Translations under genes and position numbers: made by a program
Assembly: GCA_021166815.1 (NCBI GenBank)
Contig: JAJPEO010000215.1
Coordinates: 1 to 17,207 of the forward strand
Direction of reading: 5' to 3'
DNA length: 17,207 nt
Origin: Nocardioides sp.
Lineage (GTDB): Bacteria > Actinomycetota > Actinomycetes > Propionibacteriales > Nocardioidaceae
The notes under the pieces: model-generated
Database searches by the model: none
Told to the model about the DNA's origin: nothing
What the model saw: only the letters and a program-made list of their open reading frames with translations
Part shown: one piece after another, positions 445-15,342 of the stretch
How the letters are laid out: every line of letters starts with the position of its first letter
Numbering within the stretch: the stretch's first letter is position 1

Positions 445-813
445 TCAGCGCGGCAGCGGGCTGTAGAACACCAGCCCGTTGCCCTTGTTGTCGTAGGCCA
501 CGACCCGGCGCTCGTGGGCGTCGTCGTACGGGCCCTTGACGATCGCCCCGCCGTTGGCCTCGACCTCGCGTGCCGCGGCGTCGACGTCGGCGGTCTTGAT
601 GCCGACGACGACCTGGCCGGGGATCGGGTGGTCGACGCTGGTGGCCAGCGCGATGGTCACCGACCCGCCGTCCAGGGCGGCGAAGTGGGTGCCGTCGCGG
701 AACTTCAGCGGCATGCCCAACGTGTCGACGTAGAACGCGATCGAGGCGTCCAGGTCGTCGGTGGAGAGCATGATCATGCGGACGTCGAGGTCGCGCTTCG
801 GGGTGTCAGTCAT
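445..813 (-). CDS. VOC family protein (glyoxalase/bleomycin-resistance fold)
   Basis: The product is 122 residues, the size of a single-module VOC protein with two beta-alpha-beta-beta-beta units. The first unit runs from about residue 10 (VRMIMLSTDDLDASIAFYV) with the characteristic FYVDTLGMPLKF segment. The second begins near GQVVVGIKTADVDAAAREV and ends with the usual NGLVFYSPLPR strand. VOC proteins include metal-dependent glyoxalases, dioxygenases and binding proteins, and the substrate cannot be told from sequence. The ATG at 811-813 lies inside the end of the upstream DUF2249 gene (8-bp overlap), so translation is probably coupled and this is the last gene of a four-gene operon. Whether it takes part in the same process as the DUF2249 proteins is unknown. 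Confidence 0.85.
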   Translation of the reverse strand: MTDTPKRDLDVRMIMLSTDDLDASIAFYVDTLGMPLKFRDGTHFAALDGGSVTIALATSVDHPIPGQVVVGIKTADVDAAAREVEANGGAIVKGPYDDAHERRVVAYDNKGNGLVFYSPLPR

Positions 814-1054
814 GGATGGCTCCTTCGTCGATCCTGCCCACCCACACCCTCCACACGTCCGGGCCCTCCTGCAAGGAGGTCCACGTGAACTCGCCGCGCC
901 GCTCAGCGTTGAGCATGTACCGCAGCGGCGTCGGGTCGTGGTCGGAGAGCAGCATGAAGTGGTCGCCGGCGATCAGCTCGGCGAACGCTCGGCCGACCTG
1001 GTCGGCACAGCTCAGCGTCGGGTCCGTGCGGGTGTCGACGACCACCGGGCTCAC
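806..1054 (-). CDS. DUF2249 domain protein (copy 2 of an adjacent pair)
   Basis: The product is 82 residues. It carries the DUF2249 core: FMLLSDHDPTPLRYML at about 33-48, then GEFTW and the closing QEGPDVWRVWVG. The start is GTG at 1052-1054, overlapping the TGA of the preceding gene as GTGA, which argues for translational coupling. Aligned without gaps, its residues 33-73 match residues 34-74 of the neighbouring DUF2249 protein at 23 of 41 positions, so the two are diverged tandem duplicates. The biochemical role of DUF2249 is not established; such genes often sit near nitrogen-oxide or anaerobic respiration genes, so a redox or NO-related role is only inference. The open frame continues far upstream, but the overlap with the preceding gene makes this start the likely one. 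Confidence 0.8.
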   Translation of the reverse strand: MSPVVVDTRTDPTLSCADQVGRAFAELIAGDHFMLLSDHDPTPLRYMLNAERRGEFTWTSLQEGPDVWRVWVGRIDEGAIHD

Positions 1055-1281
1055 TGCTTGCCGATCCGGACCCGCCACACCTCCGGGCCCTCTTCCTGGT
1101 AGTTCCACGAGAACTCGCCGTTGTGCTCGGCGTCGAACTGGTAGTAGAGCGGCTTGGGGTCGTGGTCGTTGACCAGCTCGAAGGCCGTGCCGGGCTCCAG
1201 CGCGTGCCACGTCTCGAAGATCAGGGTGTGGCGACGGGCCGGGACCTCGTTGCGGACGTCGAGCTGCTGGTCGGTGCTCAT
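1051..1281 (-). CDS. DUF2249 domain protein (copy 1 of an adjacent pair)
   Basis: The product is 76 residues. After an N-terminal LDVRNE strand come HTLIFETWHAL (about 18-28), the family hallmark NDHDPKPLYYQF (38-49) and the closing GEFSWNYQEEGPEVWRVRIG (55-74). This is a complete, compact DUF2249 domain. The ATG at 1279-1281 overlaps the TGA of the previous gene as ATGA, and GGAG lies 5 bases before it, which fixes the start inside a longer open frame. It lies between a small helical protein gene and its own paralogue in an operon with no gaps. Function is unknown. The His and Asp residues of the core motif could bind a metal or small ligand, but this is not established. Confidence 0.85.
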   Translation of the reverse strand: MSTDQQLDVRNEVPARRHTLIFETWHALEPGTAFELVNDHDPKPLYYQFDAEHNGEFSWNYQEEGPEVWRVRIGKQ

Positions 1282-1532
1282 GGGTTCTCCTCGGTGACGG
1301 GTGCGGAGGTGGCAGGGGCGCCGTCCTCGACGGGCAGCCGGGCCAGGAAGTGCAGCACGCCGTTGACGTGCTCGGCCTGGCGCGGGTGCTGCGCGTCGAG
1401 CACCCACCAAGCCTTGGCCGCGAGCCGGCTGGCCGCGTCGGGGAAGCCCGCCTGACCGAGCGAGCGCAGCGCCTTGACGAGGATCCGAGTGGTCTCCTCC
1501 ACGACGTCGCGGTCGTCCGCCTGGTCGGCCAT
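1278..1532 (-). CDS. Small helical protein of unknown function, first gene of the DUF2249 operon
   Basis: The product is 84 residues. I do not recognise the family. Residues from about 8 to 68 look helical and amphipathic (EETTRILVKALRSLGQAGF, AASRLAAKAWWVLD, AEHVNGVLHFLARL), followed by a Pro/Ala-rich tail. There is no signal peptide, membrane segment or cysteine. The start ATG at 1530-1532 is preceded by a strong ribosome site, GGAGG, with 4 bases of spacing, and it is the first gene after a large palindrome at 1549-1578. Its stop overlaps the start of the first DUF2249 gene. The tight coupling suggests that it works with the DUF2249 pair, perhaps as a partner subunit; that is inference. 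Confidence 0.7.
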   Translation of the reverse strand: MADQADDRDVVEETTRILVKALRSLGQAGFPDAASRLAAKAWWVLDAQHPRQAEHVNGVLHFLARLPVEDGAPATSAPVTEENP

Positions 1533-1548
1533 CCCACCTCCACGGGAA

Positions 1549-1578
1549 CAATATCCACGGACTTTTCCGTGGTTATTG
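1549..1578. promoter_or_regulatory. 30-bp near-perfect palindrome, candidate operator of the DUF2249 operon
   Basis: Two 13-base arms, CAATATCCACGGA (1549-1561) and TCCGTGGTTATTG (1566-1578), flank a 4-base centre. They are reverse complements at 12 of 13 positions. The element ends 16 bases before the ATG of the operon's first gene. On the minus strand its downstream arm contains TATTGT, which fits an actinobacterial -10 (TANNNT) just upstream of the GGAGG ribosome site. A repressor bound here would cover the promoter. A transcribed hairpin is the alternative. It does not match any operator consensus I know. Confidence 0.6.
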
Positions 1579-1633
1579 CCGACCTTACTCCATGGTGGTG
1601 CCAGCTGCCGACCCCTCCCCGTCGCACGATGGG

Positions 1634-14876: not shown

Positions 14877-15284
14877 TCACTCCCTGCCCTGGCCGACGAC
14901 CTCGACGACCACCTGGGTCGACTTGATCGAGGCCACGGCCGCCGAGCCGAGCTCGAGGCGCAGGTCCCGCACGGACTCGCTGCTCATCAGGGAGACGACG
15001 CGGAACGGGCCGCACTGGAGCTCGACCTGCGCCATCACCTCGTCCATGCGGATGTCGGTGACCAGGCCGACGAACCGGTTGCGGGCCGAGCTCGTCACCC
15101 CGCCGGGAAGGCCAGGCGGCGCGGCGTGCTCCCGGGCCACCATCGCCACCGAGTAGCCGTCGACGACCTTGCGCCCGGCGTCGTCGGTCGACGCCTGCAG
15201 CAGCCCACGGTCGATCCACCGGCGCACCGTGTCGTCGCTGACGCCGAGGTAGACCGCTGCCTCACTGACCCGCATCTCCGGCAT
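14877..15284 (-). CDS. HTH-Mop (TOBE) molybdate-responsive regulator
   Basis: The product is 135 residues. Residues 4-25 form a MerR/excisionase-type helix-turn-helix (MRVSEAAVYLGVSDDTVRRWID) with the RGLLQAS wing. Residues about 67-132 form one Mop/TOBE domain (SARNRFVGLVTDIRMDEVMAQV to LGSAAVASIKSTQVVVEV), which binds molybdate or tungstate. This architecture is common in actinobacteria directly ahead of modABC, where it is presumed to control uptake in response to intracellular molybdate. It differs from E. coli ModE in its HTH type and in having one Mop unit. The start at 15284 is preferred because TAGCCT, a -10-like element, stands 7 bases upstream, suggesting near-leaderless mRNA. ATG at 15275 or an upstream in-frame codon at 15317 are alternatives. 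Confidence 0.85.
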   Translation of the reverse strand: MPEMRVSEAAVYLGVSDDTVRRWIDRGLLQASTDDAGRKVVDGYSVAMVAREHAAPPGLPGGVTSSARNRFVGLVTDIRMDEVMAQVELQCGPFRVVSLMSSESVRDLRLELGSAAVASIKSTQVVVEVVGQGRE

Positions 15285-15297
15285 GCAGACGAGGCTA
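15285..15297 (-). promoter_or_regulatory. Candidate promoter -10 of the mod operon
   Basis: On the minus strand TAGCCT (15297-15292) fits TANNNT and lies 7 bases before the chosen ATG of the HTH-Mop gene. There is no Shine-Dalgarno sequence, so the transcript would be leaderless or nearly so. A good -35 is not seen. The gap to the upstream flavoprotein gene is 58 bp, so read-through from that gene is also possible. Confidence 0.3.
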
Positions 15298-15342
15298 CAC
15301 CCGTAGATGCGCCTCAAGCAGCGAAAAGAACCCGCATGTGCG

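Follow-up and report, generated by a model that had tools for sequence, protein, structure and literature searches.

A small helical protein paired with DUF2249 and a putative operator suggest a possible nitrite/nitric oxide response module in Nocardioides

The window analyzed here, a stretch of 17,207 nucleotides, is a whole contig of a Nocardioides sp. genome (2.83 Mb, 400 contigs, 89.7% complete). At 445-1532, the four overlapping open reading frames originally noted lie on the minus strand. The first of them encodes P0001 (1278-1532, minus strand), a helical protein of 84 residues which was characterized by Pfam and homologue searches, matches no Pfam family above cut-off and belongs to an undescribed family. 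It is followed by two DUF2249 proteins, P0002 (1051-1281, minus strand; 76 residues, TusA-like fold) and P0003 (806-1054, minus strand; 82 residues, GTG start), which score 102.1 and 64.3 bits, respectively, against PF10006 (gathering cut-off 29.5), and by P0004 (445-813, minus strand; 122 residues), a VOC/glyoxalase-fold protein matching Glyoxalase PF00903 with 58.1 bits. These genes are joined by overlaps of ATGA (P0001/P0002), GTGA (P0002/P0003) and 8 bp (P0003/P0004). Ahead of them, at 1549-1578, stands the expected 13+4+13 palindrome, a putative operator whose 13-nt arms are 92% complementary (12/13), with 4 nt between them and a conserved core at 1552-1575. Immediately 5′ of it, the hexamer TAAGGT (1582-1587, minus strand), assigned by eye and not mapped, resembles a -10 element. 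The range of 806-1578 first given to the operon leaves most of the VOC gene outside. Elsewhere in the window, a SufE-family gene (PF02657, 4-408), cut off at the contig end, is convergent to the VOC gene, and an HTH and TOBE-domain gene (14877-15317) lies beside genes which, by eye, resemble those of a molybdate ABC transporter.

A first search with P0001 retrieved 25 proteins, the nearest of which (99% identical) was the window's own, and a profile search gave 269 matches from 8000 scored candidates, of which the best 120 were examined. The distribution of the family is patchy: within the genus, the window's genome is the sole carrier of P0001 among 147, and P0001 is further present in two of the 391 genomes of the order, in nine of the 186 genomes of the family around G450 (Intrasporangium) and, with a wider profile, in five of the 394 genomes of the class, one of these five being judged false. 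In addition, a pattern scan of contigs gave 131 matches, from which four loci were confirmed. Counting each genome once, 14 genuine loci were obtained, and a P0002-type DUF2249 lies directly downstream of P0001 in every one of them (14/14). Homologues of the 84-residue protein thus exist next to DUF2249, as had been anticipated. Separate genes occur in 11 loci (the window, L009 from G451, L010 from G449, L011 from G450, L012 from G452, and those of G403, G506, G514, G536, G555 and G577), the P0001 gene of G514 lacking its first part, and in the remaining three (G673, G690 and G716) P0001 and DUF2249 share one open frame. Among cultured relatives, Intrasporangium chromatireducens carries the pair. 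With G514 left out, a script measured an overlap of exactly 4 nt at seven of the ten two-gene junctions, a 2-nt gap at two and a 23-nt overlap at one.

Fusions with DUF2249, of 152-158 residues, account for five of the best 120 among the 269 profile matches, and the Pfam search was repeated on two of these five. They were seen in different families, one fusion cluster being found on 64 contigs. Such fusions are weaker evidence than usual, since a small indel suffices to fuse the ATGA junction, and the inner methionine has been retained. P0002-type proteins greatly outnumber P0001, with 2654 matches; L017-L021 contain a P0002-type DUF2249 without P0001, and a search of the order located DUF2249 in 105 genomes out of 293. 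The pairing is one-way: in the loci found, P0001 always comes with a P0002-type protein, which itself often occurs without P0001. Collectively, gene order and frame structure indicate that P0001 and P0002 are, with high probability, a constant gene pair, at times made as one polypeptide. The P0001 family is real and is an undescribed partner family of DUF2249. Around the pair in L009 (1055-10050), the neighbors are a tryptophanase-family gene, a urocanase and an aromatic amino-acid lyase, all of amino-acid breakdown; by eye, L010 also has a tryptophanase-like gene.

The original prediction of a fixed trio including both DUF2249 copies did not hold. P0003 is not a constant member, a second DUF2249 downstream of P0002 being found in the window only. 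In G536, a DUF2249 gene stands upstream of P0001. In G449 (L010), the gene most like P0003 stands apart, about 2 kb downstream, in an operon of its own and with a separate copy of the site; in the remaining P0001 loci, no second DUF2249 was seen. Similarly, a scan of the 13 other P0001 loci gave no VOC match, some of these loci being just 2.4-3.2 kb long. The G536 cluster (L060, 9138-11189) is compact and reads DUF2249, P0001, DUF2249, hemerythrin and SufR-like regulator. By eye, the palindrome ahead of this cluster is another one and reads TTTGCACCA-ATAA-TGATGTAAA.

Under a first-order Markov model (13-nt arms, at most one mismatch, gap of 0-10), 1.0 inverted repeat of such quality is expected per sequence of the window's length and 1 was seen; the palindrome by itself is therefore no evidence, and its weight rests on conservation. 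In relatives, a TANNNT -10-like hexamer is visible by eye directly 5′ of the palindrome. Since this box lies just upstream, the palindrome would cover the expected transcription start and not, as first proposed, a possible -10. The site plan TTAACACGGA-N4-TCCGTGTTAA, located between the TANNNT box and the start codon, recurs in L009, L010, L011, G506 and G514, and a weaker version (score 11.5) precedes P0001 in G403. A matching site is thus found ahead of P0001 in seven of the 11 two-gene loci, the window and the weak G403 site included. G506 and G514 are close relatives, their NirK-like proteins being 93% identical, and their sites amount to little more than one observation. Conservation upstream of orthologous operons, which had been predicted, is accordingly partial: the sequence scanned in G452, G536, G555 and G577 holds no site scoring above 5.3, and the three fused loci none above 9.6.

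With a matrix built from the seven sites, the window palindrome scores 29.7 (25.8 when left out). No site reached 12 in 1 Mb of simulated sequence, and real sequence gave two matches of 12-14 without placement. To avoid circularity, two matrices were trained with the window site excluded. The palindrome scores 19.2 when the matrix is built on five P0001- or P0003-type sites other than its own and 23.6 when it is built on hemerythrin-DUF2249 promoters, six in number, of the order; with both, it is the top site of the window, and none as high was found in 1.5 Mb of simulated sequence. When the genome of the window was scanned with the pattern, allowing up to three mismatches, six sites were obtained versus seven for the reversed control, so the three-mismatch level is noise. 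The matches with zero and one mismatch are those of the window operon and of the third DUF2249 gene of the genome, on contig C240, whose site scores 23.2 and was outside the training set. A 2-mismatch version (L008, 1498-1521; C285:7324-7347 in the genome) lies between an aromatic amino-acid lyase gene (hutH-like, PF00221) and a membrane-type open reading frame of 49 residues.

The palindrome could also act as RNA, forming a 5′-leader hairpin for mRNA stability or translation instead of a DNA operator. Its position, past the TANNNT box and ahead of the ribosome-binding site, would place it in the transcript, and the G403 version reads by eye as a hairpin with a loop of 3 nt rather than 4. This explanation is improbable, as it is the sequence itself that is kept and not pairing alone; one G449 copy is flanked by two genes pointing away from it, at distances of 111 and 64 nt, and no Rfam match at the gathering threshold was obtained in the window, L010 or L011. 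The palindrome is quite probably a DNA operator. Other short AT-rich inverted repeats (TTGTACAAACGAGTTGTAC and ATTACAAATACTTTGTAGT) occur in L017 and L019 just before stand-alone P0002-type genes and are perhaps other operators. A perfect 14-bp palindrome, GGGACCTTGGTCCC (2813-2826), also stands immediately ahead of the window's CBS-domain gene (PF00571; 2365-2787, minus strand) and resembles the DosR/OsdR hypoxia box.

Further copies of the site occur in relatives. The G449 genome (4.6 Mb) contains just three sites within three mismatches of TTAACACGGNNNNNNCCGTGTTAA (control, zero): one before the P0001 pair, one before the P0003-type gene and one between a membrane-protein gene, after which comes a NirK-like gene, and a divergent cytochrome b561/molybdopterin gene. 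G450 and G451 have one site each at this level, both before the pair (the G450 control also gave one), and G403 and G452 have none. A NirK-like gene immediately precedes the pair in G506 and G514, and such genes are present in nine of the 11 P0001 genomes, the window's included; G451 and G536 have none, G536 carrying the module despite this. The NirK-like gene of the window's genome lies outside the window (C235:9505-10821), with a SufR-like regulator gene upstream and a hemerythrin gene directly downstream. Its product contains cupredoxin and multicopper-oxidase domains, and TIGR02376 is its best NCBIfam match. "NirK-like" is a name by nearest family, since the two proteins scored against TIGR02376 gave 137 and 160 bits (160.1 for the C235 protein), far below the equivalog cut-off of 296.3. 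In both G403 and G536, the pair has hemerythrin genes as neighbors, and four of the six DUF2249 proteins of the order that were scanned are hemerythrin-DUF2249 fusions.

As the palindrome looks common to other DUF2249 genes and to nitrite-reductase-linked genes, the pair probably takes part in a nitrite/NO response. Judged from sequence, the palindrome, the DUF2249 genes and the nirK-linked promoter fairly probably form one nitrite/NO regulon. The repression initially called dedicated is, accordingly, shared, and among the NO, redox or metal signals then suggested, NO/redox is favored.

A co-occurring regulator was also looked for, and a candidate was found. Relatives of P0030, the winged-helix protein ending the G536 cluster, occur in all 11 P0001 genomes (11/11), several per genome except in G403; the window's genome has three, on C235, C353 and C238. 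A P0030-like (SufR/ArnR-like) gene is divergent to a DUF2249 gene in 22 of 29 loci (L017-L045, stretches of about 3 kb around the highest scores of the order search). The regulator gene is present in ten of the 11 C240-type loci, and in six of the 11 a site with the half TTTCCACGGA (TTTTCACGGA in one) stands between it and the DUF2249 gene; a P0030-like gene lies at most about 5.4 kb from the NirK-like gene in six of the nine genomes that have one. The spacing C-x13-C-x26-31-C is found in 27 of 29 regulator rows, two of which are one gene. The candidate on C235 has an N-terminal winged HTH (HTH_IclR, 27.2 bits, cut-off 22) and cysteines spaced C-x13-C-x28-C; its own site scores 18.0 with the hemerythrin-DUF2249 matrix and just 3.3 with the P0001-trained one. 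Because sites in regulator promoters overlap a leaderless-type GTG start and the TANNNT box, part of their likeness may be promoter or codon sequence. Major-facilitator genes (PF07690) that by eye resemble nitrate/nitrite transporters accompany further P0030-like regulators, divergent in L072 (171-1466) and co-directional upstream in L083 (66-1340).

A link of this regulator to the operator is likely, and that the three-cysteine SufR/ArnR-like protein is itself the repressor of the palindrome has nearly even odds. Somewhat less probable is that the palindrome is a real operator of a nitrite/NO or hypoxia regulon under another regulator, be it one of the other SufR-like paralogues or a repressor of some unrelated kind. 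A regulator gene stands in the pair's own cluster in G536 only, the window's genome offers three P0030-like genes, and the promoter motif varies between lineages. The divergent arrangement found in 22 of the 29 loci argues for the three-cysteine protein, and the site, even-centered and with 4 nt between its halves, does not resemble the NsrR consensus gATGyAT-N5-ATrCATc given in the consulted part of PMC1274295.

Taken as a whole, we consider that the operon is a small nitrite/nitric oxide response module with a probability of about 50%. As long as NO is absent, the palindrome over the transcription start would be occupied by a winged-helix repressor, a dimer whose three cysteines are conserved; its first candidate in the window's genome is the C235 gene near the NirK-like gene. 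NO would then attack the Fe-S cluster of the repressor, which would leave the DNA, and the pair would be made with other nitrite/NO genes. P0001 would dock on P0002, and the two might serve as a carrier or chaperone through the conserved histidines of P0002 and not through a thiol; the cargo would be a metal, haem or a nitrogen oxide, in order to support or protect nitrite/NO enzymes. This carrier or chaperone role is speculative and rather unlikely as it stands. More tentatively than the module itself, it may be proposed that P0001 founds a family of dedicated partners of cysteine-less TusA-fold DUF2249 proteins, forming a two-part carrier for nitrite/NO enzymes, and that the palindrome is the hallmark of an actinobacterial NO regulon not yet described (DUF2249, NirK-like, hemerythrin) under a SufR/ArnR-like three-cysteine repressor distinct from NsrR.

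DUF2249 was tied to NO reductase genes in 2005, and its function is still unsettled. In the portions of the literature consulted, its context is already in print (nor linkage, DrpA/DrpB, Haloferax denitrification). The two-protein module described here is real and conserved, has a putative shared operator and belongs to a probable nitrite/NO regulon; to the known association it adds a partner family so far undescribed. A constant and at times fused partner, a thiol-less TusA-like fold, an operator and a candidate repressor make the function of DUF2249 testable. If true, this reading would provide a second NO-sensing repressor circuit in actinobacteria with NirK-like genes.

In proteins of the TusA family, the first helix opens with the catalytic cysteine. 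P0002 is modeled with the TusA/SirA fold, TusA and YeeD being the best structural matches (PDB 3lvj, 8k1r), but it lacks this TusA-type residue: its sequence contains no cysteine, and the aligned sequences keep none at a conserved column. An involvement of the pair in sulfur transfer or Fe-S assembly, which the fold and the SufE gene adjoining the operon would suggest, is accordingly very unlikely; without a cysteine, P0002 would have no thiol carrier chemistry, and the SufE gene is convergent and noted in the window only.

DUF2249 corresponds to COG4309. In the part of the study by Rodionov et al. (2005, PMC1274295) that was consulted, COG4309 occurs with nor genes under NnrR or NsrR, and in Haloferax mediterranei four DUF2249 genes rise under denitrification, according to the corresponding part of PMC11218638. 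These genes share with ours the domain and the nitrite/NO link and, as far as these excerpts go, differ in their regulators (NnrR, NsrR and a haloarchaeal motif). No mention of a helical partner of the P0001 kind was found in the portions of the DUF2249/COG4309 literature searched.

The closest parallel in gene organization is DrpA/DrpB of Thermus thermophilus, proposed as nitrate sensors in the consulted part of PMC6282519. As described there, it is also a two-gene unit tied to nitrogen-oxide respiration, in which a DUF2249 protein of one domain is encoded together with a partner. P0002, by its Pfam match, is likewise a single-domain, DrpA-like protein. In contrast, DrpB is described in the same excerpt as membrane-bound, with DUF1858 and two DUF2249 domains, whereas P0001 is a free three-helix protein without DUF2249, and a search at E 0.5 with P0001 and 29 relatives matched 14 families, none of them DUF1858. 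The drp genes adjoin nar in that account, whereas the P0001/P0002 pair appears to lie by nirK or alone; among the open reading frames of the window, no nar gene was recognized by eye.

Regarding the regulator, ArnR of Corynebacterium is, in the part of PMC12343034 consulted, a [4Fe-4S] repressor whose DNA binding is abolished by NO. Its cysteines 179, 193 and 223 resemble the C-x13-C-x26-31-C pattern of our candidates, and both are winged-helix proteins linked to nitrogen-oxide genes. ArnR, as reported in that excerpt, controls narKGHJI and hmp, whereas the candidates adjoin DUF2249, hemerythrin and NirK-like genes.
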